64,000 nt of DNA. It comes from Fluviicola sp. (GTDB lineage: Bacteria > Bacteroidota > Bacteroidia > Flavobacteriales_D > Crocinitomicaceae). Below the pieces are notes generated by a model that had not been told where the DNA came from, ran no database searches, and saw only the letters and a list, made by a program, of their open reading frames with translations. The position numbers were made by a program, and so were the translations under genes. Where the stretch lies: contig NZ_JBCNJT010000001.1 in assembly GCF_039596395.1 (NCBI RefSeq), positions 372,001 through 436,000 of the forward strand, read 5' to 3'. Shown in pieces: positions 1 to 25,120 of the stretch (the stretch's first letter is position 1; each line of letters starts with the position of its first letter).

Positions 1-184
1 TATCCATTAAAAGCTGATCTGCCAGTTCCTGCTGATTAATATTTCCGCTGTTCTTGCCGATGAGGTACAAAGGGAAATAATACCGGTCAACAGGAGTGTG
101 TTCCAGGAGCATTGCTACTTTCCCGATATATTGTTTTGTTAGAATGCTGAAAAATCGGCCTAACGGCCATTCTTGTGTATTCAT
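1..184 (-). CDS. MarR-family transcriptional regulator (5' part only)
   Basis: The reverse strand opens with ATG at 184 and reads MNTQEWPLGRFFSILTKQYI and onward without a stop to the window edge, about 61 residues. The pattern of an amphipathic first helix (residues 5-30) followed by 'NINQQELADQLLMD' is the start of a MarR-type winged-helix protein, where that segment leads into the recognition helix. MarR proteins are dimeric DNA-binding repressors, often ligand-responsive and autoregulated. The C-terminal half lies outside the window, so the ligand class cannot be judged. A perfect inverted repeat lies 15 bases upstream of the start codon and is a plausible autoregulatory operator. The gene is divergent from the kinase genes. 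Confidence 0.75.
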   Translation of the reverse strand, partial: MNTQEWPLGRFFSILTKQYIGKVAMLLEHTPVDRYYFPLYLIGKNSGNINQQELADQLLMD

Positions 185-198
185 AATCTTTTTTTGGA

Positions 199-217
199 TA
201 GTTAGTAAAGCTAACTA
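199..217. promoter_or_regulatory. Perfect inverted repeat, probable MarR operator
   Basis: The sequence is TAGTTAG-TAAAG-CTAACTA, two perfect 7-base arms around a 5-base spacer. It sits in the leader of the divergent MarR-type gene (start codon at 184). MarR-family operators are typically palindromes of this size, commonly with TTAG/CTAA-type arms. The regulator-operator link is inferred from position only. Confidence 0.55.
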
Positions 218-311: not shown

Positions 312-3200
312 TTGATCAAGTATATCCTATATAGCCTTTTTCTGGTTTTCACTGCTGCAAAAGCTCTTTCGCAACAAACAAAAGAGATTTCCTGGGAATA
401 CAACTACAAGCATTTTGGGATTAAAAATGGGTTGCCGAGTTCGGAAACTTACCAGGTTTACCAGGACAAATCAGGGTTGTTGTGGGTTTTGACTGACAGG
501 GGAATAGTGCGTTATGACGGATATGAGTTCCATACTTATACGATGGAAAGCGGATTGGCTGACAATGTCAATTTCCGGGTCGTGGAAGATTCGCAGGGAG
601 GTGTCTGGTTTGTCGGGTACAACGGATTGTTGAGTGTTTTCAGGGATGGAAAAATGCAACCCTATCCATACAATCACCTGATTAGGAAGAAGCTCGATAC
701 CGCCCAGAATCCAATCATTTCCATGCACGTTAATGAGGATCTTTCCATTGTTTACAGTTCTTTCAAATCGGGAATTTTTACAATCAGTAAAAATGGCCGG
801 TTAAAAGAGTTGCCCTTTCGATCACTAAACGGAGCGTCATTCTGGCAGTTCGGGAATGATTTTCTGCCCCATAGTGCTTTGCACAGAGTCAATGGTCCGG
901 TAAATACCTATTTGATAAGGAATAACCGGAAAATAGTCATCGGTAAGCTTTTTTTTACGATTACAGTCAGGGCTAAGGAACACAAGAAACAGTATTTCGC
1001 CCTAGCCAATCACAAAGCTTACATGAATGGTGGGAAACAATTCGAATTGATTCCCGGTACAACTGCTGCAATTGGATTGGATACAGATGAGGAATTCGTA
1101 TATATCGGATATTACAAGGGAGGAGTGAAAAAATTCCGTTTTGATCGCAGAACCAGAAAGCTGATCCTGGCAGGGCATTACTTAAAAGGTTTTTCAGTGA
1201 CATCGGCTTGCCGGGATCTGAATGGCACGTTGTGGTTTACCACGCTGGAAAAAGGAATGTTTGCTATTCATGATGAAGCTATCCGGCAGTTATCAATCAA
1301 TGGCAAACGATTCAACGGTGAAGTCCGGTTCATCAATGGGAATAAAGACAAAGTGGTATTGACTCATTATGTGGGAAAATGGCAGCAGCTTTACCCGCCT
1401 TATTTGTGTAAAGATGCAGGAAAAATGCTTGAGAAGTATAATTTACTGCCTTTTGGAAATGGATTTGCCTTTAAAAAAGGGATTGTGGATTGGAGTGACT
1501 GGCCTGAAGTGGACGATAGCTATCCGGTAAATCCGGTCTATCAAACTGGAAAGTCACTTGTTGGAAACACGAAGGAAGATACTACCAGGGTTATGGAAAT
1601 AAGACCTGTGAATACTATTTTGAGGGTTTTGGCGCATACCGGTGGAGACGACAAGCTTAGCAGCGCGTTTCATTGGTATTACATCACTGCGAATAATCAG
1701 CTTTTTGAAGTGTATAACCAGGGAGTGTTTGTTTTGGAAATACAGCATAAAAAATTTGGCGACAAACCACGTCCTGTTTTAAAGAAAAGGATCCATTTGA
1801 TGAAATATAATCCCGTGTGGGGATTGATTGCCTGCTCAAATTCGGAAGGAATATTTACCATAGATACGCATACCGGAAAAGCGAGAGAATTTGCTTCTGA
1901 TCTGGGATTAGGGAAACAAATTTTAACCTTCTTTTTCGATGAAAAAGACCAATTATGGGTTTCAACACGGAAAGGAATTTTCCTGCTTGTCAGGAAGCAT
2001 GGAAAGATGTCGGTCAATTCGTTTCTGGATAACAGTCTTTTATCCAGCAGTGAGATCACAGACTTGTATGCGTATAACCAGGTGGTTTACCTGGGAACCA
2101 AAGTGGGCGTTCAAAAAATTGAATGGCAGAAAGTAAAAAAAGGATTGAGCGGTTTTCCGTTGGAAGTATTTTCCGCGAGGGGATTTACCAGTAATAAACA
2201 GCTTGTCAGAAGCAAGGTTTATCCGGCTAAAACGGATCTGATCAAAATTTCGCTATTCAGTAAAAAACTCGATAAACCTGTCGAATACCGTTACCGTTTT
2301 GCTGCAGATGAAACATGGGTCAAATCCAATAAAGGAGAGATTATTTTGAACCATCCAACCAACGGGGATTTTAACCTGGAAGTGGCATGTTTGAACGAAA
2401 ACGGAAAATGGTCTGCATCCAAAATTTTGTATAGTTTTTCCGTTGAAAAGGTCCTTTTCCTGCGTTGGTATTTTCTATTGCTTTATGCTGTCTTGTTAAT
2501 TGTTCTGTTTTACATGATCCTGAAATTATCGATTCAATCGGTCAATAAGAAAAACTACATGCTCAACCGGATGATGGAACTGGAACGCATGGCACTTTCT
2601 GCTCAAATGAATCCGCACTTTATCTTCAATTCACTGAACTCCATTCACAGTTTCCTGTTGTATGAAGAAAATGAGAATGCCGAAAAATACCTGCTGCGAT
2701 TCGCCAAATTGATCCGCCAGACGCTTTCCAACTCCAGGGCAACCTACATTACGGTTGAAGAGGAATATGAAACGTTGAAGAATTACATTTTACTGGAAAA
2801 TATGCGTTTTAAAAATGGGTTTACCTTCCGGATCGAATGTGATTTCAATCAAATGCCTTTAAATCCATGCATTCCGCCGATGCTGATCCAGCCTTACGTT
2901 GAAAATGCCATTATTCACGGATTACCGAAACGGACCCAGGGTGCTGAACTACTGATCCGGTTCTACAAAGAAGGTGACCGTCTGAAAGTAATGATCCGGG
3001 ATAACGGAATCGGTTATAAAGAATCGCAAAGGAACAAGCGGGATACCGGGCATAAATCTTATGGGACACAGATCACGGAAGAGCGGATGAAATCCCTCCA
3101 GGAAAGGAACAGGGAAGGTTTCAGTGTGGAGGTAAGTGATGCGGACGAGTCCAATCCGGAATTCCCGGGAACAAAAGTCATTTTGACTATTCCCATTTAA
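312..3200 (+). CDS. Propeller-sensor LytS-type histidine kinase, copy 1
   Basis: A 962-residue inner-membrane sensor kinase. A signal peptide (residues 1-21, ending AKALSQ) is followed by a periplasmic two-component-regulator beta-propeller: the Reg_prop-like repeat 'GLPSSETYQVYQDKSG..LWV' starts near residue 40, and further 'LWFTT', 'LWVST' repeats run to about 600. A Y_Y_Y-like module precedes one membrane helix (about 717-740). The cytoplasmic His_kinase domain has its H-box QMNPHFIFNSLNS with predicted phosphoacceptor His769, and the ATPase N-box PPMLIQPYVENAIIHG lies near 854-869. There is no receiver or AraC domain, so this is not a hybrid kinase; a LytTR-type partner would be expected but is not in the window. 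The start is TTG, chosen because it gives a clean signal peptide and matches both paralogues. First of three tandem copies. Confidence 0.9.
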   Translation: MIKYILYSLFLVFTAAKALSQQTKEISWEYNYKHFGIKNGLPSSETYQVYQDKSGLLWVLTDRGIVRYDGYEFHTYTMESGLADNVNFRVVEDSQGGVWFVGYNGLLSVFRDGKMQPYPYNHLIRKKLDTAQNPIISMHVNEDLSIVYSSFKSGIFTISKNGRLKELPFRSLNGASFWQFGNDFLPHSALHRVNGPVNTYLIRNNRKIVIGKLFFTITVRAKEHKKQYFALANHKAYMNGGKQFELIPGTTAAIGLDTDEEFVYIGYYKGGVKKFRFDRRTRKLILAGHYLKGFSVTSACRDLNGTLWFTTLEKGMFAIHDEAIRQLSINGKRFNGEVRFINGNKDKVVLTHYVGKWQQLYPPYLCKDAGKMLEKYNLLPFGNGFAFKKGIVDWSDWPEVDDSYPVNPVYQTGKSLVGNTKEDTTRVMEIRPVNTILRVLAHTGGDDKLSSAFHWYYITANNQLFEVYNQGVFVLEIQHKKFGDKPRPVLKKRIHLMKYNPVWGLIACSNSEGIFTIDTHTGKAREFASDLGLGKQILTFFFDEKDQLWVSTRKGIFLLVRKHGKMSVNSFLDNSLLSSSEITDLYAYNQVVYLGTKVGVQKIEWQKVKKGLSGFPLEVFSARGFTSNKQLVRSKVYPAKTDLIKISLFSKKLDKPVEYRYRFAADETWVKSNKGEIILNHPTNGDFNLEVACLNENGKWSASKILYSFSVEKVLFLRWYFLLLYAVLLIVLFYMILKLSIQSVNKKNYMLNRMMELERMALSAQMNPHFIFNSLNSIHSFLLYEENENAEKYLLRFAKLIRQTLSNSRATYITVEEEYETLKNYILLENMRFKNGFTFRIECDFNQMPLNPCIPPMLIQPYVENAIIHGLPKRTQGAELLIRFYKEGDRLKVMIRDNGIGYKESQRNKRDTGHKSYGTQITEERMKSLQERNREGFSVEVSDADESNPEFPGTKVILTIPI

Positions 3201-3235
3201 ACAGGCTAAAAAAATGAAGAGATACGGAATTCTTT

Positions 3236-3243
3236 TACATTTG
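3236..3243 (+). promoter_or_regulatory. -7 promoter element TACATTTG (kinase copy 2)
   Basis: Exact match to TAnnTTTG, 27 bases before the TTG start codon at 3271. About 70 bases around it are almost unchanged upstream of the third kinase (element at 6183-6190), so the promoter was duplicated with the gene. No clear TTG -33 box is seen. Confidence 0.55.
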
Positions 3244-3270
3244 CTGTAAATCTAAATCTCCGGTACTGTT

Positions 3271-6147
3271 TTGATCAGGTCTTTTTTTTGTGGGTTTCTC
3301 TTTCTTGGAATTGCAATTACTGTATTTGCACAAGAAAATCGTATTTCATGGGAATACAACTATGATCATTTTGGAATCAAGAACGGGCTTCCAAGCTCGG
3401 AAACGTACCAGGTTCACCAGGATAAGTCAGGACTGTTGTGGATTTTAACAGACAGGGGAGTTGTGCGCTACGACGGATTTCAGTTTAAAACTTACACCAC
3501 AGAAAATGGATTGTGCGATAATGTCAATTTCCGGATGGTGGAAGGCCTTGATGGAGGAATTTGGTTTATCGGGTTTAATGGACTGTTAAGTGTGTACAAG
3601 AAAGGGGAAATGAAGCCCTACCGGTACAATCCGAAAATTCAAAAATCCTTGAAGTCATACAAGTCGGGTAATATAATGATCCATGTAAACCGGGATGGAT
3701 CGATCATCTATAATTCTTCCGGACGAACAACTGTTAAGATCAGTAAAAAAGGAAGAGTAACTAATTTAATGAAGGAAACGGTGGATGCCGGCTACCTGAT
3801 GGATTATGGGGGGCAGCTGCTGCTTCAAAAGACCATTACAACGAATGATTTCAAGAAGGTTTTTTTGATCAGAGGGAAGAAGAAAATATTTCTGGGAAAA
3901 ATCGTTTTCAACCAAACACTTCGGGCAAAAAAACACAAACAGCATTATTTTGTGATTGCCGGATCGAAAGCCTATTTGCATGACGGGTACCAATTTCGTT
4001 TGATTTCAGGAAATCAGTCAGTTATCGGTTTAGATACAGATGATCAATACCTTTACATCGGTTTTTACAAGAACGGAGTAAAAAAATACCGGTTCGATCC
4101 AAAGACCAAAGAGCTTGTTTTCGTCCGGCATTATTTCCCGAATTACTCTGTAAGTTCAGTGAGCTTAGATCACAATGGGGCTTTGTGGTTTACAACCCTT
4201 GAGAACGGAATTTATGTTATTTACGATGAGGCTTTTCAACAGCTTTATATGAATAAGCACAAATTGAACGAAGAGATCCGTTTCGTGAATGGAAACAAAA
4301 ACAAAATTATCCTCACTTACCATGTAGGTAAATGGCAGCAATTGTATCCCCCTTTTTTACAAAAAGAACAGGGAAGAATAAATCATCAATTCAATATGCT
4401 GCCAGCTAATAACGGTTTCATTTTTCACAAGGGAGTTGCGGATTGGAGCGATTGGAAGGACGTAGATGATAGTCATAGTCTGATCCCGCTCTATAAAACA
4501 GATACTTCTTTTTTGGGAGTAGATCAGTTTGCAAGGGAAATTGTCGAGGTGGGAAAAAGCACAGTAACCAGGAATGACTTTAGCGAAGTGGTCCGTTCGG
4601 GAATAACCGGATCGTTTTACTGGTTCCATTTCTACAGGAAGGATAAGTTGTTTATGTTGTTCGATGACGGGGTGTTTGTTCTTCCAGTTAAAGACGGAAA
4701 ACTTCAGAAATCGTATCGTCCAGTGCTCTTGAAACGACTGGACCGTTTGATTTACAACCGTGTTTGGGGGCTTCTTGCCTATTCAACAAGTGAAGGAGCT
4801 TTTGAAATCAATGAGGAAACGAACAGGGCGGTGCAGTTTGCCCCGGATTTAAATCTGGGAAAACAGATCATCCGCATTTTCTTTGATGAAAAGGACCAGT
4901 TATGGTTGGCAAACAAAAAAGGAATATTTCTGCTGGAAAAGAAAAACGGGAAAGCGAAAGTCCTGTTTTTCGTGAATCGTGACCGATTGTCTTCTCCGGA
5001 AATTATGGATATGTATGCCTATGAGGATGTGCTTTACCTGGCAACTAAATTCGGTGTTCAGCGGATAAACGTTCCCAAAGTGAAGAAAAAACAATTTACG
5101 AATCCGATTTCTTTACTTGAGATAAAAGTATTTGCAAATAACAGGAAATTGGAACGGAATATCGTTTATCCTTCTGAAACGGACCTGATTAAAATCTTTC
5201 TGATGAACAAAGGTTTGGATGGCAGTAACCATTATAGGTACCGTTTCGGTGCAAACGAAACATGGAATGTTTCAGATAAAGGAGAAATTGTTCTGAATAA
5301 TCCATCTGATAAAGTATATGCTTTGGAAGTTTCTTATCTGGATTCGTTTAATCATTGGACGAAACCTGTAAAACTGGGAGTGTTTGAAGTTGAGAAAATC
5401 ATTTTCCTGCGCTGGTACTTTATCTTGCTTTATATCGGGTTGGTCGTTCTTGTGTTCTATGGAATTTTGAAATATACGGTAAGAGCAGCAAACCGCAAGA
5501 GTGAATTGTTGAACCGGATGATGGAGTTGGAACAAATGGCACTTTCTGCTCAAATGAATCCACATTTTATCTTCAATTCATTGAACTCCATTCACAGTTT
5601 CCTGTTGTATGAAGAGAATGAGAATGCTGAAAAATACCTGCTGCGATTCGCCAAACTGATCCGCCAGACGCTTTCCAACTCCAGGGCAACCTACATTACG
5701 ATTGAAGAGGAATATGAAACGTTGAAGAATTACATTTTACTGGAAAACATGCGTTTTAAAAATGGGTTTACCTTCCGGATCGAGTGTGATTTCAATCAAT
5801 TGCCTTTAAATCCATGCATTCCGCCGATGCTGATCCAGCCTTACGTTGAAAATGCCATCATTCACGGATTACCGAAACGGACCCAGGGTGCTGAACTGCT
5901 GATCCGGTTCTACAAAGAAGGTGACCGCCTGAAAGTAATGATCCGGGATAACGGAATCGGTTATAAAGAATCGCAAAGGAACAAGCGGGATACCGGGCAT
6001 AAATCTTATGGAACACAGATTACGGAAGAGCGGATGAAATCCCTCCAGGAAAGGAACAGGGAAGGTTTTAGTGTGGAGGTAAGTGACGCGGATGAATCCA
6101 ATCCGGAATTCCCGGGAACAAAAGTCATTTTGACAATTCCTATTTAA
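3271..6147 (+). CDS. Propeller-sensor LytS-type histidine kinase, copy 2
   Basis: A 958-residue paralogue of the preceding kinase with the same order: signal peptide (1-20, ending TVFAQ), propeller repeats, Y_Y_Y-like module, one membrane helix near 712-735, His_kinase domain with predicted phosphoacceptor His765, and an ATPase domain. The kinase half is almost residue-for-residue the same as copies 1 and 3. The sensor differs in large blocks, for example the segment around residues 120-200. It starts with TTG (MIRSFFCG), which is the only start that keeps the signal peptide. It has its own -7 element, so it may be transcribed separately. The ligand is unknown; related propeller sensors respond to oligosaccharides or other periplasmic signals, but nothing here identifies one. 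Confidence 0.9.
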   Translation: MIRSFFCGFLFLGIAITVFAQENRISWEYNYDHFGIKNGLPSSETYQVHQDKSGLLWILTDRGVVRYDGFQFKTYTTENGLCDNVNFRMVEGLDGGIWFIGFNGLLSVYKKGEMKPYRYNPKIQKSLKSYKSGNIMIHVNRDGSIIYNSSGRTTVKISKKGRVTNLMKETVDAGYLMDYGGQLLLQKTITTNDFKKVFLIRGKKKIFLGKIVFNQTLRAKKHKQHYFVIAGSKAYLHDGYQFRLISGNQSVIGLDTDDQYLYIGFYKNGVKKYRFDPKTKELVFVRHYFPNYSVSSVSLDHNGALWFTTLENGIYVIYDEAFQQLYMNKHKLNEEIRFVNGNKNKIILTYHVGKWQQLYPPFLQKEQGRINHQFNMLPANNGFIFHKGVADWSDWKDVDDSHSLIPLYKTDTSFLGVDQFAREIVEVGKSTVTRNDFSEVVRSGITGSFYWFHFYRKDKLFMLFDDGVFVLPVKDGKLQKSYRPVLLKRLDRLIYNRVWGLLAYSTSEGAFEINEETNRAVQFAPDLNLGKQIIRIFFDEKDQLWLANKKGIFLLEKKNGKAKVLFFVNRDRLSSPEIMDMYAYEDVLYLATKFGVQRINVPKVKKKQFTNPISLLEIKVFANNRKLERNIVYPSETDLIKIFLMNKGLDGSNHYRYRFGANETWNVSDKGEIVLNNPSDKVYALEVSYLDSFNHWTKPVKLGVFEVEKIIFLRWYFILLYIGLVVLVFYGILKYTVRAANRKSELLNRMMELEQMALSAQMNPHFIFNSLNSIHSFLLYEENENAEKYLLRFAKLIRQTLSNSRATYITIEEEYETLKNYILLENMRFKNGFTFRIECDFNQLPLNPCIPPMLIQPYVENAIIHGLPKRTQGAELLIRFYKEGDRLKVMIRDNGIGYKESQRNKRDTGHKSYGTQITEERMKSLQERNREGFSVEVSDADESNPEFPGTKVILTIPI

Positions 6148-6182
6148 ACCGGCAAAAAAAATAAAGAGATACGGAATTCTTT

Positions 6183-6190
6183 TACATTTG
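6183..6190 (+). promoter_or_regulatory. -7 promoter element TACATTTG (kinase copy 3)
   Basis: Exact TAnnTTTG match, 27 bases before the TTG start at 6218. The surrounding 70 or so bases copy the region upstream of kinase 2 with only a few changes. Confidence 0.55.
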
Positions 6191-6217
6191 CTGTAAATCT
6201 AAATCTCTGGTACCGTT

Positions 6218-9109
6218 TTGATAAGGTCTTTTTTTTGTGGATTTCTCTTTCTTGCGATTGCATGTATTGCGTCTGCGCAAAAAAATAGTATCTCATGGGA
6301 ATACAATTACGATCATTTCGGAATAAAAAACAGATTGCCAAGTTCAGAAACCTACCAGGTTCACCAGGATAAGTCAGGACTATTGTGGATCCTCACGGAC
6401 AAAGGAGTTGTTAAATACGACGGATTTGAATTTTATACCTATACCACGGAAAACGGACTGAGTGATATTGTCAATTTCAGAGTGGTGGAAGATCCGAACG
6501 GAGGAGTCTGGTTTATTGGATTTAACGGCCTTTTAAGTGTTTTCCAGAATGGGAAAATGCAGGCTTACAAATACAACCATTTACTTGAGAAGCATGTCCC
6601 GGTCGGGAGAAACATAGGCATCTCCCTTCATGTCAAAAAAGACCAGTCGATTGTTTACTGTGTTGCCCAAAAGAAAATGATTGCTGTAAGTGCAACTGGT
6701 AAAGTGAAGGATTTATCTGACGGGTTCAATGAAAACACGTATCTTTTTGAGTTTGGTAATGAATTATTAAGCCTGCAGAAAACAAACGCTACGACATCGG
6801 ATATTTATTTGAATAAGAATAATACCAGCGGTTTATTGGGAAATGTCCGTTTAGCAGGAACAACCAGGGCTAAGAAATATCAAGGCAAGTATTTTTTGAC
6901 AACGAATTACAAGCTTTATTTTAGTTATGATCAAAGGTTCATACAGGTGGTCGATGATCCGGGGCATGAGATAATTGGCTTGGATGCGGATAAAGACTTT
7001 TTATATGTAGGATTGTACAAGAATGGGTTGAAAAAGTTTCGGTTCGATCCGGAGAAAAAAGAACTGGTACTCGTCAGCCACTATTTACCAAATTATTCAG
7101 TAACCTCGGCGTATAGAGATTTCAATGGAACTTTATGGATTACGACATTGGAAAACGGCATTTTTGCTTTGTATGACGAAGCATTCAGACAATTATCCGT
7201 CAACGGGAATAAAGTGAACGAAGAGGTGCGCTTTATCAGTGGAAATAAGGAAAAGATCATTATCAACTATTATGTGGGTAAATGGCAGCAATTGTACCCG
7301 CCGTTTCTCTGTAAAGACGTCGGTAAAATAGTTTATAAGTATAATTTGCTGCCTGTAGGAGATGGATTCGCTTTTAAGAGTGGGATTGTGGATTGGAGCG
7401 GCTGGAAGGATGTCGATGCAACTTATGATGGAAATCCTGTTTATACCAACGGACAATTCGTGATGGGCTTGTCGAGACGACGGTATGAAATAGTTGAGAT
7501 GAAGGGGCCCGTATACATGAACGGATATGATGTTAATTTTATTGACCGGTCAAAGCTGGTAGGAGCTTTTTACTGGTTTTATAAATTCAGGAATAAGAAA
7601 ATGTTCATTTTATTCGACGAAGGTGTTTTTTGCTTTGATCTGGAAAAATCAAAAATGTCAGAACATTACCGGCCTGTTTTAAGAAAGCGGATCAACCAGT
7701 TGGAATATAATAAAACCTGGGGCTTACTGGCCTATTCAAGCCTGGCGGGTATTTATCACATTGACATGGAAAGTGAGGTAGCTTCCGGATTTGCTCCGGA
7801 TCTCAACATCGGAACACAGGTTTCGGGTATTTTCTTCGATGAAAAAGACGGGCTTTGGGTAGTAAGTGAAAAAGGGCTGTTTTTATTGGAAAAGAAAAAC
7901 GGGAAAATAAACAGTAGTTGTTTTGTAAACAGGAACCTGATTTCCAGTGCAGAAGTAATGGATATCTATGCCTACAATAAGACCGTTTATGTTTCCACCA
8001 AGTTTGGTGTTCAGAAAATCGACTTCCTGAAAGTGAAAAAAGAACGCAGAGGATGCCCGATTGAACTTTTTTCAGTCCGTGCTTTTGCCAAAAACAAGGA
8101 ACTCTCACCTGGTAAGATACTTCCTTCAAAAACAGATCTTATTAAAATCAATCTTTCCAACAGGAACCTGAATCCTTCTGTTGTTTACAAATACCGGTTC
8201 GGTAAAGATCAAACCTGGACGAAAACAGATAAGGGTGAAATTGTCCTGAATAATCCTTCGAATGGGATTTATACATTGGAGGTTTCCTATCTGAATCACT
8301 TAAATTATTGGACAAAACCGGTCAAACTGACTGTTTTTGAAGTGGAGCAGCACATTTTTCTGCGCTGGTATTTTATCTTGCTTTATATCGGGTTGGTGAT
8401 CGGATTGTTTTATGGAGTTTTGAAGTATACCATAAAAGCTTCTAACCGGAAAAACGAATTGCTGAACCGGATGATGGAACTGGAACGCATGGCGCTTTCT
8501 GCGCAGATGAATCCGCACTTTATCTTCAATTCATTGAACTCCATTCACAGTTTCCTGTTGTATGAAGAAAATGAGAATGCCGAAAAATACCTGTTGCGAT
8601 TTGCCAAACTGATCCGCCAGACGCTCTCCAACTCCAGGGCAACCTACATTACGATTGAAGAGGAATATGAAACGTTGAAGAATTACATTTTACTGGAAAA
8701 CATGCGTTTTAAAAATGGGTTTACCTTCCGGATCGAGTGTGATTTCAATCAATTGCCTTTGACTCCTTGTATTCCGCCGATGCTGATCCAGCCTTACGTT
8801 GAAAATGCCATCATTCACGGATTACCGAAACGGACCCAGGGTGCTGAACTGCTGATCCGGTTCTACAAAGAAGGTGACCACCTGAAAGTATTGATCCGGG
8901 ATAACGGAATAGGTTATAAAGAATCGCAAAGGAACAAGCGGGATACCGGGCATAAATCCTATGGGACACAGATCACGGAAGAGCGGATGAAATCCCTCCA
9001 GGCAAGGAACAGGGAAGGTTTCAGTGTGGAGGTAAGTGATGCGGACGAGTCCAATCCGGCATTCCCGGGAACAAAAGTCATTTTGACGATTCCTATACCA
9101 ACTAATTGA
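6218..9109 (+). CDS. Propeller-sensor LytS-type histidine kinase, copy 3
   Basis: A 963-residue third copy of the tandem family. The signal peptide (1-20, ending CIASAQ) is nearly identical to copy 2 in its first 12 residues. The propeller, membrane helix and kinase follow, with predicted phosphoacceptor His767 and an intact N-box. It differs at the end: the last residues are TIPIPTN rather than TIPI, because the stop codon of the other copies has been lost and reading continues three codons. It begins with TTG like its paralogues. The sensor region is about as different from copies 1 and 2 as they are from each other, which fits duplication followed by sensor divergence. Confidence 0.9.
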   Translation: MIRSFFCGFLFLAIACIASAQKNSISWEYNYDHFGIKNRLPSSETYQVHQDKSGLLWILTDKGVVKYDGFEFYTYTTENGLSDIVNFRVVEDPNGGVWFIGFNGLLSVFQNGKMQAYKYNHLLEKHVPVGRNIGISLHVKKDQSIVYCVAQKKMIAVSATGKVKDLSDGFNENTYLFEFGNELLSLQKTNATTSDIYLNKNNTSGLLGNVRLAGTTRAKKYQGKYFLTTNYKLYFSYDQRFIQVVDDPGHEIIGLDADKDFLYVGLYKNGLKKFRFDPEKKELVLVSHYLPNYSVTSAYRDFNGTLWITTLENGIFALYDEAFRQLSVNGNKVNEEVRFISGNKEKIIINYYVGKWQQLYPPFLCKDVGKIVYKYNLLPVGDGFAFKSGIVDWSGWKDVDATYDGNPVYTNGQFVMGLSRRRYEIVEMKGPVYMNGYDVNFIDRSKLVGAFYWFYKFRNKKMFILFDEGVFCFDLEKSKMSEHYRPVLRKRINQLEYNKTWGLLAYSSLAGIYHIDMESEVASGFAPDLNIGTQVSGIFFDEKDGLWVVSEKGLFLLEKKNGKINSSCFVNRNLISSAEVMDIYAYNKTVYVSTKFGVQKIDFLKVKKERRGCPIELFSVRAFAKNKELSPGKILPSKTDLIKINLSNRNLNPSVVYKYRFGKDQTWTKTDKGEIVLNNPSNGIYTLEVSYLNHLNYWTKPVKLTVFEVEQHIFLRWYFILLYIGLVIGLFYGVLKYTIKASNRKNELLNRMMELERMALSAQMNPHFIFNSLNSIHSFLLYEENENAEKYLLRFAKLIRQTLSNSRATYITIEEEYETLKNYILLENMRFKNGFTFRIECDFNQLPLTPCIPPMLIQPYVENAIIHGLPKRTQGAELLIRFYKEGDHLKVLIRDNGIGYKESQRNKRDTGHKSYGTQITEERMKSLQARNREGFSVEVSDADESNPAFPGTKVILTIPIPTN

Positions 9110-9181: not shown

Positions 9182-9772
9182 TTAGCCGTGCATCGTCTCT
9201 GCCTTCCCGTATTTGTCCATCAGGGATGCTTCAAATTCCAGGAATGCTTTCCAGCGCGCATCCACGTCAATTCCATCGCCGTATTTGCGGGCAAAATTCA
9301 GGAATACGGTATAATGACGTGCTTCGCTTTCCATCAGGCTTCGGTAAAACCCGCGAAGGTCTTCGTCGTTGATCTCTTCTGAAAGGATTTTGAAGCGTTC
9401 GCAGCTGCGGGCTTCGATCATTGCTGCAAAAAGCAACTGGTTCACCATGTGCGATTTTTTGGGATTACCCGAATGTGCGTGCTTTAAAAAGTCCAGCAAA
9501 TCATGGACATAAGGATCCTTGCGCTCAAACCCAAGTTCAAATCCGCGCTCCAGTATCTTATCGTGTACCATCCCGAAATGTTCCATTTCTTCCTGGCAAA
9601 TTTCTATCATGGCTTTTACCATATCCGGGTATTGCGGGTACTGAACAATAATAGAAATGGCATTGCTGGCTGCTTTTTGTTCGCAGAAGGCATGATCTGT
9701 CAGGATCTCCGCAATGTTTTTCTCTACAATGTTCACCCAGCGCGGGTCGGTTGGTAATTTTAAACCTAACAT
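9182..9772 (-). CDS. miaE: MiaE-like tRNA hydroxylase
   Basis: A 196-residue protein of the tRNA-(ms2io6A)-hydroxylase family, a ferritin-like non-haem di-iron enzyme that hydroxylates the isopentenyl side chain of modified A37 in tRNA. Di-iron ligand motifs are visible in order: an early Glu, EEMEH, EARSCERF and SEARHYTVF. The start at 9772 (MLGLKLPTDPRW) is preferred to a longer in-frame start because family proteins begin near here and the extra residues look like untranslated leader. It is convergent with the kinase array and divergent from the phosphatase gene. Family assignment is firm; the exact tRNA substrate is not tested by sequence. Confidence 0.85.
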   Translation of the reverse strand: MLGLKLPTDPRWVNIVEKNIAEILTDHAFCEQKAASNAISIIVQYPQYPDMVKAMIEICQEEMEHFGMVHDKILERGFELGFERKDPYVHDLLDFLKHAHSGNPKKSHMVNQLLFAAMIEARSCERFKILSEEINDEDLRGFYRSLMESEARHYTVFLNFARKYGDGIDVDARWKAFLEFEASLMDKYGKAETMHG

Positions 9773-9832
9773 AATTGAAATTTTACCGCAAATTTCGCGA
9801 TTTCTTGAATTCAAATCCTAGTTTTGTTAGAA

Positions 9833-13489: not shown

Positions 13490-15283
13490 ATGCGTTATAC
13501 TTATTTTAGTTTTAAAAATTTTAAAGGTATTGAATCAGCTAGAATAGAGCTTTCAAAAAAATCAAATAGTAATATTTATACATTGGTTGGACTTAATGAA
13601 AGTGGTAAAACTACAATACTTGAAGCAATTAATTTTTTTGCACATAATCCTGAAAAACTTGATGCCTTAGATCTTCAGAATTATTCAATTGATGATATTC
13701 ATGATTTAATTCCAATTAACAAACGGGATAATTTTAATGATGAAATTACTATAGAAGCTGAAGTTGTCATGGAAGATTCTGATATTGAAGGCTTGAAGAG
13801 AATATATAAAGAAAATGATCTGAATCTAGTCTCCTTTGAGAAGAATATTATCTTCACTCAAAGCTATGTTTTCAAAAATTCGATTCATGATCAAAATGAA
13901 TCCCAAATGTTATGGAGACCTAATTTTTACGGAACTGAAGGGAAAAAGAAAAAAGTTCAAAAATTCGATAAAACTCAGACTGATTTAGTTGTCAAATATA
14001 TTTTGGAATGCTTGCCAAGTATTTTGTATTTTCCAAATTTCTTGTTCGAATTTCCGGAAAAGGTTTATTTGAATTCAACCATAAATGACAAAAAACATTT
14101 GTTTTATCAGAAAATAATACAGGATGTTCTGGATTCCTTGGAAAATGATACTGATGTGAGTGAGCATTTAGTTAAAAGAATTCAATCAACAGATGATAAG
14201 GAAAGAAGGAATTTAGATAGTTTGATTGGTAAGATGCAAAAGAAACTTACAGAAGTTATTTTTACAAAATGGAATCAAATTTTCAATAAAGAAATATCAA
14301 AGACGGAAATAATATTAAGAGCATCTAAAGATGAGAAAGGGCCCTTTATTGAGTTTAATATAAAAGATGATGTTGATACTTATCGCATAAATGAGCGTTC
14401 TCTTGGGTTTAGATGGTATTTTGTATATATTTTGTTAACTCAATTCAGAAGCTATAGAAAAAAGAATAATCAGGTTTTGTTTTTGTTTGATGAGCCTGCG
14501 TCTAATTTACATCCTTCTGCTCAGTCTGAATTGCTTAATAGTTTTGAGAAATTGCATAATGTTATTTACACTACCCATAGTCATTATTTGATAAACCCTA
14601 AGTGGTTAGAAAATACTTTTGTAATAAAAAATGATGCAATAGATTATTTAGATGAATCAAATTATGTATCCAAAAACACTAAAATTCATGTGAAAAAATA
14701 TCGTGAGTTTGCGGTGAAACATCCAAACCAACATAGTTATTTTCAACCAATTTTGGAGGTGTTAGATTACAAACCTAGTAATTTGGATTTAGTTCCTGAT
14801 GCTGTTTTTACAGAAGGAAAAAATGATTTTTACACGTTGAATTATTTACAAAACATTTATTTTAAAACTAAGAAACCAATAAGTGTAATTCCTGGAACTA
14901 GTTCAAGTAATCTGGATACTTTAATAAGTCTCTATTTAGGTTGGGGAAGAAATTTTATTATTCTTTTAGATTCTGATAAAGAAGGTCGTAAACAACGTGA
15001 TAGATATATTGAAGCTTTTGGAGAAAGCATTTCAAAAAGAATTCATACTTACGATATGATTGATCCTACGTGGAAAGATTACACGTTGGAAAAGTTCTTT
15101 AAAGAAGATGAAAAACATACCATCCAACAAAGAAATTATCCGTCAAGTCACAAGTTTAATAAAAAACATTTTAACCGAAGTATCCAGGAGCTTAATTTAA
15201 AAATGGAAAAAATTAGTTTAAGTAAAGAGACTGAAACAGATTTAATCAAAGTATTTAAATATTTGAGTGAAAGGTTAAAATAG
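13490..15283 (+). CDS. OLD-family ATPase/TOPRIM nuclease
   Basis: A 597-residue protein with an N-terminal SMC/ABC-type ATPase: Walker A GLNESGKTT at 34-42, a signature-like segment before Walker B, LFLFDEP with Asp334/Glu335, and a downstream H-loop-like TTHSH. A C-terminal TOPRIM domain follows, with Glu442 in TEGKND and the DSD pair Asp494/Asp496. This is the architecture of OLD nucleases (phage P2 Old, and the GajA subunit of Gabija). No UvrD-like helicase gene is adjacent, so it fits a stand-alone class 1 OLD protein rather than Gabija. It is markedly more AT-rich than its neighbours and sits between two housekeeping-type genes with its own leader, which suggests lateral acquisition. A phage-defence or DNA-repair role is inference. 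Confidence 0.85.
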   Translation: MRYTYFSFKNFKGIESARIELSKKSNSNIYTLVGLNESGKTTILEAINFFAHNPEKLDALDLQNYSIDDIHDLIPINKRDNFNDEITIEAEVVMEDSDIEGLKRIYKENDLNLVSFEKNIIFTQSYVFKNSIHDQNESQMLWRPNFYGTEGKKKKVQKFDKTQTDLVVKYILECLPSILYFPNFLFEFPEKVYLNSTINDKKHLFYQKIIQDVLDSLENDTDVSEHLVKRIQSTDDKERRNLDSLIGKMQKKLTEVIFTKWNQIFNKEISKTEIILRASKDEKGPFIEFNIKDDVDTYRINERSLGFRWYFVYILLTQFRSYRKKNNQVLFLFDEPASNLHPSAQSELLNSFEKLHNVIYTTHSHYLINPKWLENTFVIKNDAIDYLDESNYVSKNTKIHVKKYREFAVKHPNQHSYFQPILEVLDYKPSNLDLVPDAVFTEGKNDFYTLNYLQNIYFKTKKPISVIPGTSSSNLDTLISLYLGWGRNFIILLDSDKEGRKQRDRYIEAFGESISKRIHTYDMIDPTWKDYTLEKFFKEDEKHTIQQRNYPSSHKFNKKHFNRSIQELNLKMEKISLSKETETDLIKVFKYLSERLK

Positions 15284-15367
15284 TGTGGAATTGTATTCAA
15301 AGGATTGAAAGATCTATTAGTCTTTTAGGAAACTATTTGACTAACTTAGTACCTTCATTAAAACTCC

Positions 15368-16915
15368 ATGAATAATACGTTAACTCCAGGACTGATTACC
15401 GCCGTTTTGATCGGTTACTTCGGATTGCTTATCCTGATGGCTTACCTGACATCCCGAAAAGCCGATACAGATTCGTTCTTTACAGGAAACAGGCAAAGTC
15501 CCTGGTATTTGGTAGCATTCGGTATGATCGGTACTTCACTTTCCGGAGTTACGTTCATTTCTGTTCCCGGAAAAGTATATTCCGAAGGAATGGCCTATTT
15601 CCAGATCGTTTTGGGTTACATTCTCGGTTACGTAGTTATCGCACAGGTGCTGATGCCGCTCTATTACCGGCTGAATGTTACGTCCATTTACGAATACCTG
15701 AACAAACGCTTCGGAATAGTGAGCTACAAAACCGGGGCAGCATTTTTCATTCTTTCACGCACCCTCGGATCAGCAACCCGTTTGTACCTTGCCACGGAAG
15801 TGCTCCAGATGTTCCTCTTCGAAGATTTGGGTGTTCCTTACTGGGTTACAACTCTTACGACCATCGTCCTGATCTGGGTTTATACGTTCAAAGGCGGCGT
15901 GCGGACAATCGTTTATACAGACGCATTCCAAACGATCTTCCTGGTTTCATCCGTTGTTATTTGTACGGTCATCATTGCACAGACTTTGGGAGTGGATTTC
16001 TCAGGCTTGTACAACAAGATCACTTCTTCCAGCACTAAGAACGGGTATTCCATGTCGCGTATTTTCTTCTTCGATGATCCGAATTCTCCCCTGTATTTCT
16101 ACAAGCAATTCTTCGGAGGAATGTTCCTGGCGATTGCAATGACGGGGCTGGACCAGGATTTGATGCAAAAGAACCTGACGTGTAAATCCATCGGTGATGC
16201 GAAGAAAAACATGTATTCTTTTACAACCGTTCTGGTAATTACCAACTTCCTGTTCCTGCTTTTGGGTGGAGCATTGTACGTGTATACACAGGCAAAAGTC
16301 ATCGACGTTCCGGCAAACACCGATCACACATTCCCGCAACTGGCTTTGAGTAATTTTGGTTCCATAGCCGGGATTTTCTTTTTACTGGGAATCACCGCGT
16401 CCTCGTATGCATCGGCAGATAGCGCACTTACAGCACTTACCACCGGTTTTTGTATCGATTTCCTGAACTTTAACCGGAGAGAAGAAAAAGAAAAGAAACG
16501 CATCAAATTACTGGTGCATATCGGGTTTTCCCTGCTTTTCCTGTTGATCATTATTGCAACGAACTGGTATGTGGATTCCACGCCGGGAACAGATCTGATC
16601 GGTTTGATCCTGAAGTTGGCAGGTTATACCTACGGTCCTTTGCTCGGATTGTTTGCTTTGGGAATTTTCACCAAACGGCGTTTGAATGAAAACCTGGTGC
16701 CGTTGATTTGTGTGTTGATCCCGGCAATCTGTTTCTTTATCAGCAAGTATTCACAGGCCTGGACAGGCGGTGTTTTGCAGCCCGACGGAAAATATGCCGG
16801 CGGATACATATTCGGGAATGAATTGCTGATCCTGAACGGGTTATTGACCTTCATCGGATTGTGGCTGATTTCGAAACCGGGAAGTGAAACTGTCCAATCT
16901 GTTCAAACAGTTTAA
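15368..16915 (+). CDS. Sodium/solute symporter (SSS family)
   Basis: A 515-residue inner-membrane transporter. About 13 hydrophobic segments can be counted, beginning at residues 7-26, with the N-terminal family features 'SFFTGNRQSPWYLVAFGMIGTSLSG' region (residues 36-60) and GKVYSEGMAYFQ. SSS proteins couple inward sodium flow to uptake of sugars, amino acids, vitamins or anions; substrate cannot be assigned from sequence. The start ATG at 15371 gives MNNTLTP and follows a short untranslated stretch with no Shine-Dalgarno sequence. It stands apart from the OLD gene upstream; the HAD hydrolase follows after a TTCAAAA-type inverted array. Confidence 0.88.
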   Translation: MNNTLTPGLITAVLIGYFGLLILMAYLTSRKADTDSFFTGNRQSPWYLVAFGMIGTSLSGVTFISVPGKVYSEGMAYFQIVLGYILGYVVIAQVLMPLYYRLNVTSIYEYLNKRFGIVSYKTGAAFFILSRTLGSATRLYLATEVLQMFLFEDLGVPYWVTTLTTIVLIWVYTFKGGVRTIVYTDAFQTIFLVSSVVICTVIIAQTLGVDFSGLYNKITSSSTKNGYSMSRIFFFDDPNSPLYFYKQFFGGMFLAIAMTGLDQDLMQKNLTCKSIGDAKKNMYSFTTVLVITNFLFLLLGGALYVYTQAKVIDVPANTDHTFPQLALSNFGSIAGIFFLLGITASSYASADSALTALTTGFCIDFLNFNRREEKEKKRIKLLVHIGFSLLFLLIIIATNWYVDSTPGTDLIGLILKLAGYTYGPLLGLFALGIFTKRRLNENLVPLICVLIPAICFFISKYSQAWTGGVLQPDGKYAGGYIFGNELLILNGLLTFIGLWLISKPGSETVQSVQTV

Positions 16916-21993: not shown

Positions 21994-22001
21994 TAGATTT
22001 G
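21994..22001 (+). promoter_or_regulatory. -7 element TAGATTTG of nrtR, overlapping a TTGCGTA half-site
   Basis: An exact TAnnTTTG match 24 bases before the nrtR ATG at 22026. The motif TTGCGTA begins inside it (21999). The same heptamer forms the arms of the palindrome downstream of nrtR, so autoregulation is plausible. Confidence 0.45.
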
Positions 22002-22025
22002 CGTACAGGACACACATTCTTTTTT

Positions 22026-22718
22026 ATGAAGCTTGATCAAAACATAAAAGTAGCTGTAGACGCCATTGTTTTCGGGTATTCCGGGAATAAACTAAGCGTG
22101 TTGCTCATCAAGCAAAAATTTGGTGTCATGAAACAGCAATGGGCTTTGGTAGGCGGTTTTGTAAAGGACGATGAATCCTTGTCTGCAGCTGTAAAACGGG
22201 AACTCCAGGAAGAAGCGGGAATAGAAGTGAACTTCCTGGAACAACTTTATACCTTCGGAGACAATATTCGCCGCGACCCGCGTTTCCGGGTCATTTCAGT
22301 GGCCTATTTTGCTTTGGTAAATCCTGCCCAGTTCCAGGTAAAAGCAGATACCGATGCGGAGGATGCGCAATGGTTCCCGATCGATGAACTTCCCGATTTG
22401 GCTTACGATCATAGGGAAATTGTAGAAACGGCCATTCAACGGTTGAAAAATAAAGTGACCTACCAACCGATCGGGTTCGGGTTACTTCCGGATGAATTTC
22501 TATTCTCCGAATTGGAAAACCTGTATTGCACGATCCTCAACCGGGAAATAGACCGCCGGAATTTCCGGAAGAAAATCCTAAGCTTCGGATTTGTAGAAGA
22601 AACAGACCGGTTTGCCAGTAAAAAGAGCGGACGCCCGGCAAAATTATTTCGATTTAATGCGTTAAAATACAACGAGTTAATTGCAAATGGAATACACTTT
22701 GAAATTAATTTTGCGTAA
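22026..22718 (+). CDS. nrtR: NrtR-type Nudix transcriptional regulator of NAD metabolism
   Basis: A 230-residue protein with an N-terminal Nudix domain and a C-terminal winged-helix domain ending FRFNALKYNELIANGIHFEI. The Nudix box is complete: GGFVKDDESLSAAVKRE followed by LQEEAGI. NrtR proteins repress NAD synthesis genes and sense ADP-ribose-type ligands through the Nudix fold. The ATG at 22026 (MKLDQNIKVAVD) is chosen over an upstream TTG because family members start near here and the upstream piece overlaps promoter sequence. The next two genes supply PRPP and NMN, which supports the assignment strongly. A perfect palindrome overlaps its stop codon. Because the Nudix box is intact, residual hydrolase activity is possible. 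Confidence 0.85.
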   Translation: MKLDQNIKVAVDAIVFGYSGNKLSVLLIKQKFGVMKQQWALVGGFVKDDESLSAAVKRELQEEAGIEVNFLEQLYTFGDNIRRDPRFRVISVAYFALVNPAQFQVKADTDAEDAQWFPIDELPDLAYDHREIVETAIQRLKNKVTYQPIGFGLLPDEFLFSELENLYCTILNREIDRRNFRKKILSFGFVEETDRFASKKSGRPAKLFRFNALKYNELIANGIHFEINFA

Positions 22719-22731
22719 TTTTTACGCAAAA
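22709..22731. promoter_or_regulatory. Perfect palindrome, probable NrtR operator
   Basis: Arms TTTTGCGTAA and TTACGCAAAA (10 bases each, perfect) around TTT. It overlaps the nrtR stop codon and ends three bases before the -33 TTG of the NAD-salvage promoter. NrtR binds palindromes of about 21 bases in other bacteria; the match to this protein is inferred from context and from extra TTGCGTA half-sites nearby. Confidence 0.7.
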
Positions 22732-22734
22732 TAC

Positions 22735-22765
22735 TTGCTAAATCAATGCGTGTATTTTATATTTG
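22735..22765 (+). promoter_or_regulatory. Promoter of prs-nadV, TTG-N20-TATATTTG
   Basis: TTG at 22735-22737 and TATATTTG at 22758-22765. The -7 element runs into TTGCGTAAA (22763 onward), a copy of the operator half-site. A repressor bound at either site would block polymerase. Confidence 0.65.
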
Positions 22766-22791
22766 CGTAAAAAGAACACAAATTAAAATCT

Positions 22792-23631
22792 ATGATACTC
22801 AATCTCGACAAAAATTTCAAACCGCTTGAGGGCAAAGAAATTGAATTCCAGGTATTCACTTTTGCAGGTGGAGAACCGCACATCAAGATCAACCCGGATT
22901 TTGACACCACACAAGCGGTAACGGTAACACATCGCCTGAATTCCTTCCACGATTTGGGAATTTTATGCCTGGCAGCAGATGCATTACAGCGTATGGAACT
23001 GGAATTGGCCCAATTAATCATTCCTTATTTTCCGGCAGCGCGCCAGGACCGGGTGATGATCAAAGGTGAACCGCTTTCCGTGAAAGTTTATGCAGACATC
23101 ATCAACGGATTGGGTTTCAAAAAAGTAACCGTTTTCGATGCACATTCCGAAGTAACACCGGCCTTATTAAACAAATGTGATGCTGTTCCGAATCACCGGT
23201 TTATCGCCGAAGTAATCAAACAAATCGGGAAAGAACCGTTATTGATTTCTCCGGATGGAGGAGCTTTGAAGAAAATTTACAAAGTATCCGAATTCCTGAA
23301 CGGGCTGGATGTAGTGGAATGCAGCAAACACCGCGATGTAAAAACCGGGAAACTGGAAGGCTTCAAAGTCTATTCCGATGACCTGGGCGGTCGTGATTGT
23401 TTGGTGGTGGACGACATTTGCGACGGCGGCGGTACATTCATGGGGCTGGCACAGGAACTGAAGAAAAAGAATGCCGGGAAATTGTACCTGGCGGTCAGTC
23501 ACGGAATTTTCAGCAAAGGAGTAGCGGACCTGGCAAACTATTTCGATCGTATTTTCACTACCGATTCTTTCAAGGAACTGGAGCATCCGAATATGACCCA
23601 AATCAAATTAAATCAAACTATTTTATCTTAA
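22792..23631 (+). CDS. prs: Ribose-phosphate pyrophosphokinase-like protein of NAD salvage
   Basis: A 279-residue protein of the PRPP synthetase family, which makes 5-phosphoribosyl 1-pyrophosphate from ribose 5-phosphate and ATP. Visible are YFPAARQDRV (equivalent of the YxxYARQDR ATP loop) and the PRPP-binding loop CLVVDDICDGGGTF (residues 203-216). It is shorter and more divergent than the housekeeping Prs (about 310 residues), so it is probably a dedicated paralogue feeding the NAMPT encoded 13 bases downstream. Such prs-nadV pairs also occur in phages. It is preceded by the NrtR operator and promoter. Confidence 0.85.
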   Translation: MILNLDKNFKPLEGKEIEFQVFTFAGGEPHIKINPDFDTTQAVTVTHRLNSFHDLGILCLAADALQRMELELAQLIIPYFPAARQDRVMIKGEPLSVKVYADIINGLGFKKVTVFDAHSEVTPALLNKCDAVPNHRFIAEVIKQIGKEPLLISPDGGALKKIYKVSEFLNGLDVVECSKHRDVKTGKLEGFKVYSDDLGGRDCLVVDDICDGGGTFMGLAQELKKKNAGKLYLAVSHGIFSKGVADLANYFDRIFTTDSFKELEHPNMTQIKLNQTILS

Positions 23632-23644
23632 AAAATCAATCGAT

Positions 23645-25120
23645 ATGAATCCTTTATTATTAACAGACGGGTATAAAGTAGACCACAGAAGACAATATCC
23701 GACCGGAACAACTTTGGTGTATTCCAACTGGACTCCCCGAAAAAGCAGGCTGGACGGAGTAAACGAAGTGGTTTTCTTCGGTTTGCAATACTTCATCAAA
23801 AAATACATTTTGGAAGATTTTGAAGAACATTTCTTCAAACAACCGAAGGAAAAAGTACTGGCGCAATACGAGCGACGCATCAACAATTACCTGGGAGAAA
23901 ACCAGGTCGGGACGAAACACATTGCAGACCTGCACGATTTGGGATACATTCCGATGGTGATCAAAGCATTGCCAGAAGGAGCAATCGTTCCGATGAAAGT
24001 GCCGATGTTTACGATGTATAATACGTTGCCGGATTTCTTCTGGCTGACGAATTACTTCGAAACCCTGGTTTCAGCAGTTGTTTGGATGCCATGTACTTCT
24101 GCAACTCTGGCAAGACAATACCGTCTGATCCTCGATAAATTTGCTGCTGAAACATCTTCTATGCCGGAATTTGTAGACTGGCAGGGACACGATTTCTCCA
24201 TGCGCGGAATGGCAGGTATTGAAGCGGCTTTAATCTCAGGAATGGGACATTTGACCAGTTTCACAGGAACAGATACCATTCCGGCCATTGAAACATTGGA
24301 GCACTATTACGGTGCGGATTCTAATAAAGAACTCATCGGAGGATCCGTTTCAGCAACGGAACACAGTGTGATGTGCATGGGAACGATTGAAGATGAGATC
24401 GGAACGTTCAGAAGATTGATTTGCGACGTATACCCGAAAGGAATCGTATCCATCGTTTCCGATACCTGGGATTTGTGGAAAGTACTGACAAATTACCTGC
24501 CTCAATTGAAAAATGAGATTCTGGGGCGTGAAGGAAAAGTAGTGATCCGCCCTGACAGCGGTGATCCGGTAGATATCATTTGTGGAAATCCGGAAGGGAA
24601 AACGGAGTACGAACGCAAAGGAGTCGTGGAATTATTGTGGGATACATTCGGTGGCCAAACCAATGAAAAAGGATTCAAAGAACTGGATCCGCATATCGGT
24701 GCAATTTACGGGGACAGCATCACAACCACGCGGGCCACACACATTTGTGAGCGCTTGAAAGCCAAAGGATTTGCATCTACGAATGTGGTTCTTGGAATCG
24801 GTTCTTACACGTACCAATACAATACACGTGATACGTTCGGGTTTGCCATGAAAGCAACTTACGGAGAAGTAAACGGAGTAGGGCGAGAGATCTTCAAAGC
24901 TCCGGTTACGGACGATGGAACGAAAAAATCTGCCAAAGGATTGATGAAAGTGGAATTCACAAACGGCACTTATGTTTTACAGGACCAGGTAAGCTGGGAA
25001 GAAGAAAAACAGGGAGCATTGAAAGAAGTGTTCAGAGACGGAAAATTACTGGTAGACCAATCTTTGGCAGAAGTCAGAGAACGGGTGAAAGAATCAACGA
25101 CTGTTTCTGAGAAAATCTGA
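23645..25120 (+). CDS. nadV: Nicotinamide phosphoribosyltransferase
   Basis: A 491-residue cytoplasmic enzyme that joins nicotinamide and PRPP to give NMN, the first salvage step to NAD. Near the N-terminus LLTDGYKVDHRRQYP is the NAMPT signature with the substrate-contacting Asp and Tyr; SGMGHLTSFTGTD and VIRPDSGDPVDI are the phosphate-binding region; SKKSAKGLMKVEF-like sequence closes the fold. The length matches the animal and bacterial NAMPT family, longer than NAPRT. It forms a two-gene operon with the PRPP synthetase gene under likely NrtR control. A terminator follows. Adenylylation of NMN to NAD must be done by an enzyme encoded elsewhere. Confidence 0.92.
   Translation: MNPLLLTDGYKVDHRRQYPTGTTLVYSNWTPRKSRLDGVNEVVFFGLQYFIKKYILEDFEEHFFKQPKEKVLAQYERRINNYLGENQVGTKHIADLHDLGYIPMVIKALPEGAIVPMKVPMFTMYNTLPDFFWLTNYFETLVSAVVWMPCTSATLARQYRLILDKFAAETSSMPEFVDWQGHDFSMRGMAGIEAALISGMGHLTSFTGTDTIPAIETLEHYYGADSNKELIGGSVSATEHSVMCMGTIEDEIGTFRRLICDVYPKGIVSIVSDTWDLWKVLTNYLPQLKNEILGREGKVVIRPDSGDPVDIICGNPEGKTEYERKGVVELLWDTFGGQTNEKGFKELDPHIGAIYGDSITTTRATHICERLKAKGFASTNVVLGIGSYTYQYNTRDTFGFAMKATYGEVNGVGREIFKAPVTDDGTKKSAKGLMKVEFTNGTYVLQDQVSWEEEKQGALKEVFRDGKLLVDQSLAEVRERVKESTTVSEKI

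Follow-up and report, generated by a model that had tools for sequence, protein, structure and literature searches.

How can neighbouring sensor kinases of one freshwater bacterium be nearly identical in their signalling halves when their sensors lie far apart? This question is raised by a Fluviicola sp. stretch of 64,000 nucleotides (nt), C1:372001-436000 of a 4.6-Mb genome in five contigs (genome G000), which was analysed as a whole and is called here the window. Near its start lie three tandem open reading frames (ORFs) on the same strand, the sensor kinase genes A, B, and C (Table 1). A preliminary description of this DNA had reported three adjacent paralogues of 958-963 residues with near-identical kinase halves and divergent sensors, and our measurements bore this out, with DNA identities of 95-96% for the kinase halves versus 58-61% for the sensors. 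We report here that the kinase halves were homogenised through recombination, and we consider concerted evolution by gene conversion in an old tandem array of distinct propeller sensor kinases to be the probable cause.

Uniform divergence along the genes, which the preliminary description had set against its own claim, was not seen; a sharp step was found in all three pairs. By maximum-likelihood change-point analysis, DNA identity rose from 0.575 to 0.961 (A/B) and from 0.589 to 0.956 (A/C) after residue 751 of A, and from 0.610 to 0.949 (B/C) after residue 744 of B. The gain in log-likelihood was 166-209, whereas the highest gains among 200 shuffles of each pair were 6.9-8.3. The step, for which the preliminary description had pointed to the H-box, was located slightly upstream of it (residues 744-751; phospho-acceptor His 769), inside a helix (residues 719-763) predicted to run from the membrane to just before the H-box. 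Because Nei-Gojobori synonymous divergence was saturated for two of the three sensor pairs, four-fold degenerate sites were counted. The three pairs differed at 63/122, 83/125, and 86/138 of these sites in the sensor plus transmembrane (TM) part, and at 7/75, 8/75, and 9/74 in the kinase part. Given that the step is also present at silent sites, protein-level selection cannot have produced it. Moreover, near-identity ran through the stop codon and across both intergenic gaps (70 bases each; 65/70 shared by A-B and B-C), and the starts of B and C were also alike, although less strongly (the first 30 alignment columns were 84% identical in DNA).

Tandem near-repeats are easily misassembled, and a kinase region copied in error during assembly or sequencing might produce such a picture. 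Against this, each kinase half carries private differences (10 in A, 14 in B, and 17 in C), the array sits within a 2.08-Mb contig in which the surrounding gene order is conserved, and the same pattern was found in a single-contig genome, as described below; we regard such an error as extremely improbable. The private differences were also clustered along the kinase half (20 runs in 41 sites; one-sided P = 0.0075, runs test), as expected from several tracts.

To place the three genes among their relatives, 14 genomes of the genus, the window genome included, were searched. The kinase was present in eight of the 14, as 11 genes: three in the window genome, two in G001, and a single copy each in G002, G005, G006, G009, G012, and G013. 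Three copies were thus not found in any of the related genomes. A search of 240 genomes of the family with E values up to 1e-120 matched nine genomes, all of the same genus, namely those eight and G004, whose match was distant (32%). Scanning contigs for the locus returned six loci, again those of G001, G002, G005, G006, G009, and G012. The G004 kinases, which have a broken frame and masked letters, were excluded from all pair counts and trees. The protein alignment comprised 18 kinases and the pairwise comparison 23, the latter being read for this locus and for same-locus pairs.

In the DNA tree of the kinase halves (11 genes), A, B, and C formed a clade (support 99/99) with G005/G012 as its sister group (98/99); another clade united the two copies of G001 (100/100). 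The DNA tree of the sensors conflicted with this: A grouped with G005 and G012 (100/100), and C with G002 and G006 (100/100). Approximately unbiased (AU) tests rejected a clade of A, B, and C for the sensor (p = 2.8e-12); for the kinase they rejected both A with G005 and G012 (p = 0.0038) and C with G002 and G006 (p = 0.001). Adjacent segments of these genes therefore have older, conflicting histories. The preliminary description had left two origins side by side, recent triplication with relaxed sensors and recurrent gene conversion of the kinase halves. The first, whether the sensors were relaxed or positively selected, is scarcely credible: variation of the sensors is indeed greatest in two blocks, as under diversifying selection, but the silent sites of the sensors are near saturation whereas those of the kinase are not, and the AU test rejected the clade that a triplication implies. 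Gene conversion was the origin that gained support, from the conflicting trees, the clustered private differences, and a second breakpoint.

This second breakpoint was found in G001, a single-contig genome with its own two-gene array at the locus. The kinase parts of the pair showed 0.97 amino acid (aa) identity and 8/63 four-fold differences, compared with 0.60 aa identity, 66% DNA identity, and 72/140 four-fold differences in the sensors. In the kinase half, copies within a genome are accordingly more alike than orthologs, silent sites included, in both arrays of this locus. In G001, however, the breakpoint lies inside the kinase: the H-box stretch was 81% identical in DNA and the remainder 99%, with 0/47 four-fold differences over the last four blocks. 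Together with the runs test, this different breakpoint indicates patchy tracts left by several events. The G001 record itself (CP034120.1; L051) is titled Glaciecola amylolytica THG-3.7; it falls in the genus Fluviicola and is probably mislabelled.

Strong purifying selection on the kinase half alone was also considered, and conservation of the DHp region in all 11 genes compared speaks for it. A second tandem pair of PF06580/Reg_prop genes, which adjoins a tRNA pseudouridine synthase gene in G000, G001, G002, G006, and G009, served as a control. Its kinase halves were 60-66% identical in aa in 5/5 genomes, that is, there was no such homogenisation, and in four of the five (G000, G002, G006, and G009) the copies clustered by ortholog, not by genome. 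A tandem pair of G008 at the orthologous place, with 73% kinase and 44% sensor identity, was not recently homogenised. Besides this control, the silent sites of the A, B, and C kinase halves are alike too, whereas these halves differ from other species' genes at 29/53 to 41/54 four-fold sites, and the untranslated gaps share 65 of 70 bases. Selection on the kinase alone is thus most improbable as the cause. Recent triplication, kinase-only selection, and assembly error were all judged very unlikely on the basis of silent sites, trees, and private differences.

By which route recombination acted can be approached through the TM/linker segment just before the kinase half. This segment occurs in two types, type I in B, C, G005, and G012 and type II in the remaining seven genes, A among them, with 100/100 support for the split. 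In its tree, B, C, G005, and G012 grouped at 100/100, and A with G005/G012 was rejected (p = 0.001). Identity was 114/144 nt between B and C and 116/144 for each of B and C with G005, whereas in the kinase half directly downstream B shared 585/615 nt with C versus 459/615 with G005. Since the linkers of B and C are no closer to one another than to that of G005, these two genes had separated before their kinase halves became alike; their separation would be about as old as the separation from G005. The age of the B and C linkers argues for conversion rather than another recombination route, which we infer, and the case for conversion within an old array rests mainly on the history of this segment. 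The G005/G012 gene, with an A-type propeller on a type I linker, looks like a fusion left by a collapsed array.

The main rival is that one gene was duplicated in tandem and that foreign alleles then replaced the sensor halves by homologous recombination, for which the conserved kinase end and the first propeller blade acted as homology arms. Both flanks of the G001 genes, which are more alike than their sensors, fit this course: the upstream regions were identical at 106/127 aligned bases, and the 3' flanks showed 99 identities and 1 mismatch, plus gaps. The gap between the two G001 kinases also holds a relic of the miaE 3' end (L056 6873-7034), and the tandem duplication therefore included that end. 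Moreover, the most variable parts of the sensors are two propeller blocks (Table 1) that look imported in the close pair G005/G012 (L060/L065). These two genomes are 97% identical in two marker genes; their kinase genes differed at 24/48 four-fold sites in the blocks, whereas the counts were 38/205 for the remainder of the sensor and 8/73 for the kinase (blocks versus rest of the sensor, P = 2e-5, with the blocks picked after the profile was seen). The propeller blocks were probably exchanged by recombination, beyond what selection alone would do. Replacement of whole sensor halves is harder to reconcile with the TM/linkers of B and C, which have diverged as far from each other as from G005, or with the other linker type of A; furthermore, no fetched relative has a sensor close enough to that of B or C to be a recent donor. 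We consider this rival unlikely.

Several points weigh against concerted evolution by gene conversion. Conversion and replacement of a sensor cassette leave nearly the same trace, and the likeness of the G001 flanks fits a younger duplication with a replaced sensor as well. The array is found in only two of the eight genomes with the kinase, and the two control copies of G001 fall outside both ortholog clades and have no neat fit. The groups for the AU tests were picked after identities had been seen, so that the p-values are too favourable; these tests still allowed B and C as sisters in the sensor (p = 0.128) and a clade of A, B, and C in the first blade (p = 0.258). Protein trees agreed with the DNA trees at lower support (kinase A, B, and C, 86/85; G001 pair, 67/42). 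The TM/linker argument is based on 48-51 codons, and 41 sites entered the runs test. In addition, the species order around G000 is unsettled: a two-gene tree (trigger factor and Lon; 12 of the 14 genomes) placed G000 with G005/G012 at 90/94, with moderate support at the key node, and a four-gene tree, which gave another order, was set aside for the odd history of one of its genes (ORF 15368-16915).

With these points taken into account, we still hold gene conversion in an old array to be the likely explanation. Repeated homologous recombination among the copies, in the likeliest case non-reciprocal gene conversion, would overwrite the kinase half in tracts that extend through the intergenic gap into the beginning of the following gene. 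The propellers would be too diverged to recombine among themselves, with selection perhaps adding to their separation. With their nearly identical DHp/CA domains, the kinases could form mixed dimers and act as an OR-gate through which several ligands give one output, perhaps including the linked MarR-RND efflux genes. More tentatively, and with the balance of probability against it, the array may be an evolving receptor repertoire of interchangeable, partly hypervariable stacked sensors whose kinase halves are kept interchangeable by recombination. Recombination would in that case add, fuse, and delete sensors, as in the G005/G012 chimera of an A sensor and a type I linker, and the arrangement would allow mixed dimers and one shared regulator.

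Table 1. Features of the kinase array and its immediate neighbours (window positions).
Feature	Position	Strand	Description
MarR-family gene, start	1..184	-	Pfam MarR 3e-13; divergent from A; part of the linked gene cluster by gene order
Sensor kinase A	312..3200	+	962 aa; begins with TTG; N terminus resembling a signal peptide; propeller repeats; long membrane helix; His_kinase (PF06580); weak matches to Y_Y_Y and HATPase_c
Hypervariable propeller block 1 of A	804..1010	+	residues 165-233
Hypervariable propeller block 2 of A	1452..1871	+	residues 381-520
TM/linker of A, type II	2439..2582	+	segment tree, two-type split 100/100; same type in G001, G002, G006, G009, G013
Homogenised kinase half of A	2583..3200	+	identity 592/615 nt with B and 587/615 nt with C; change point after residue 751
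Intergenic A-B	3201..3270	+	promoter-like TTACATTTG; belongs to homogenised tract; 65/70 identical to B-C gap
Sensor kinase B	3271..6147	+	958 aa
TM/linker of B, type I, as G005/G012	5386..5529	+	identity 114/144 nt with C and 116/144 nt with G005
Homogenised kinase half of B	5530..6147	+	585/615 nt identical to C
Intergenic B-C	6148..6217	+	homogenised with A-B gap
Sensor kinase C	6218..9109	+	963 aa
TM/linker of C, type I, as G005/G012	8339..8482	+	segment tree and identities
Homogenised kinase half of C	8483..9109	+	identity to kinase halves of A and B; change point
miaE, downstream neighbour marking the locus	9182..9814	-	Pfam MiaE 5.5e-43; synteny

The domain content of the three proteins was examined by Pfam searches. 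His_kinase (PF06580) was matched in A, B, and C at 75.4-75.7 bits (cut-off 25.2; E about 4e-21), and the phospho-acceptor His (H769) was invariant across the 18 aligned proteins. HATPase_c matched the C-terminal stretch at E values of 3.5e-4 to 2.4e-3, under the curated cut-off in 3/3. Reg_prop repeats scored 29.2-39.6 bits (cut-off 20.4; 3/3), and Y_Y_Y, located before the TM helix, scored 17.6 bits in A and 21.1 in C, under the cut-off of 26.6, and was unlisted for B at E up to 0.01. No C-terminal receiver or AraC output family appeared in the Pfam listings of A, B, and C (3/3), and the proteins are accordingly not classed as hybrid two-component systems (HTCS). In a profile search the periplasmic part matched 4a2l at E = 3e-45. 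Foldseek gave E = 9.2e-25, but with TM-scores of 0.2-0.3 from a weak model. Its solved relatives are the Bacteroides sensors 4a2l/4a2m (BT4663), 3v9f (BT3049), and 3ott/3va6 (BT4673). The structure model of A (mean pLDDT 71, pTM 0.40), which contains the long helix 719-763, was too weak for placing the hypervariable blocks on a ligand site.

A single LytTR partner had been suggested for the three kinases, and one conserved LytTR regulator was indeed linked to the locus. The gene for this response regulator (Response_reg and LytTR) precedes the array by about 6 kb and lies beyond the window (C1:365476-366231). Orthologs of the regulator were 87-97% identical in all seven other genomes with the kinase, whereas the best match in the remaining six genomes was at most 58%; in G003 and G008, that less similar regulator also adjoins a diverged propeller kinase. 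Regulator and kinase lie on one contig, 0.7-6.3 kb apart, in seven of the eight genomes, and on separate contigs in G005. As the DHp/CA domains of A, B, and C are nearly identical, the three are expected to phosphorylate a common partner, for which the linked LytTR regulator is the most likely candidate. Several sensors feeding one output is thus a plausible arrangement, as judged from sequence.

The genes between regulator and array encode MarR, membrane-fusion, RND, and outer-membrane efflux proteins, with the MarR-family gene adjoining the efflux genes, and the RND pump is perhaps a target of the regulator. Orthologs of the pump (82-95%) were found in six of the seven other kinase genomes; G006 has a different pump nearby (31-33% identical), and G003 and G004, which are without this kinase, have the pump at 77-78%. 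The pump gene (G000:C1:367602-370652) was 93% identical to that of G001 and 82-84% to those of G002, G009, and G013. Trigger factor, by contrast, was 92% identical to that of G001 and 94-98% to those of G002, G009, and G013, and the pattern of the pump points to possible lateral exchange. Related kinase genes are also preceded by a motif resembling the promoter-like TTACATTTG of the A-B gap. A short inverted repeat without mismatches, GTTAG-TAAAG-CTAAC, was noted at window positions 201-215, in the interval that separates kinase A from the divergent MarR gene; it had one match in the window and none in shuffles, and is a candidate MarR operator. An imperfect likeness of this repeat was seen by eye upstream of the first kinase of G001.

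Elsewhere in the window, the ORF at 15368-16915 (sodium:solute symporter family) was 89-92% identical to G001, G006, G009, and G011 and 77-81% to G002, G005, G012, and G013; it may be a paralog or a laterally replaced gene. Four ORFs at 13490-15283 and 21999-25120 had no match of more than 80% coverage in the stretches fetched from eight relatives. The G+C content falls to 0.34 at 14001-16000.

The kinase/regulator interface of duplicated sensor kinases is usually expected to diverge, which avoids cross-talk. The array shows the opposite: the interface is nearly identical and the sensors are far apart, in two genomes and with different breakpoints. It thereby offers a natural system for testing many-to-one signalling and mixed-sensor dimers. 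It also implies that new sensor kinases can arise by recombination at a joint just upstream of the H-box, and that whole-gene trees of such kinases mix several histories. Among the papers listed, in a literature search that left most subscription journals outside, there was no report of concerted evolution of histidine-kinase halves.

Several known systems share individual traits with the array. Like the LytS-type kinases that work with LytTR regulators, A, B, and C have PF06580 and a linked LytTR regulator; the textbook LytS sensor is membrane-embedded, whereas A, B, and C have a periplasmic propeller and one membrane helix before the kinase. In their periplasmic part they resemble the Bacteroides sensors BT4663, BT3049, and BT4673. 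Hybrid two-component systems, however, carry both a receiver and an AraC domain, whereas neither is listed for A, B, and C, whose linked partner is a separate LytTR regulator. AgrC and ComD combine a strain-variable sensor half with a conserved kinase half and are thus similar in placing sensor diversity on a constant kinase, but their variation lies between strains at one locus, and that of the array between copies within one genome. For myxobacterial two-component systems, the available part of one study mentions that homologous recombination or gene conversion may have been promoted by the abundance of these genes (PMC4603909). The closest published parallel that we found is that of Tlp2, Tlp3, and Tlp4 of Campylobacter jejuni, whose signalling domains are identical, whereas the sensory regions share about 30% identity; the tree of the signalling domains largely follows that of the genomes, unlike the tree of the sensory regions (PMC9769880). 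In the accessible part of that paper, the authors describe duplication with divergent sensors and name "gene conversion" once, for change into a pseudogene (PMC9769880). The Tlp proteins are chemoreceptors with dCache sensors, whereas A, B, and C are histidine kinases, but both sets consist of three paralogous receptors that share a signalling end.

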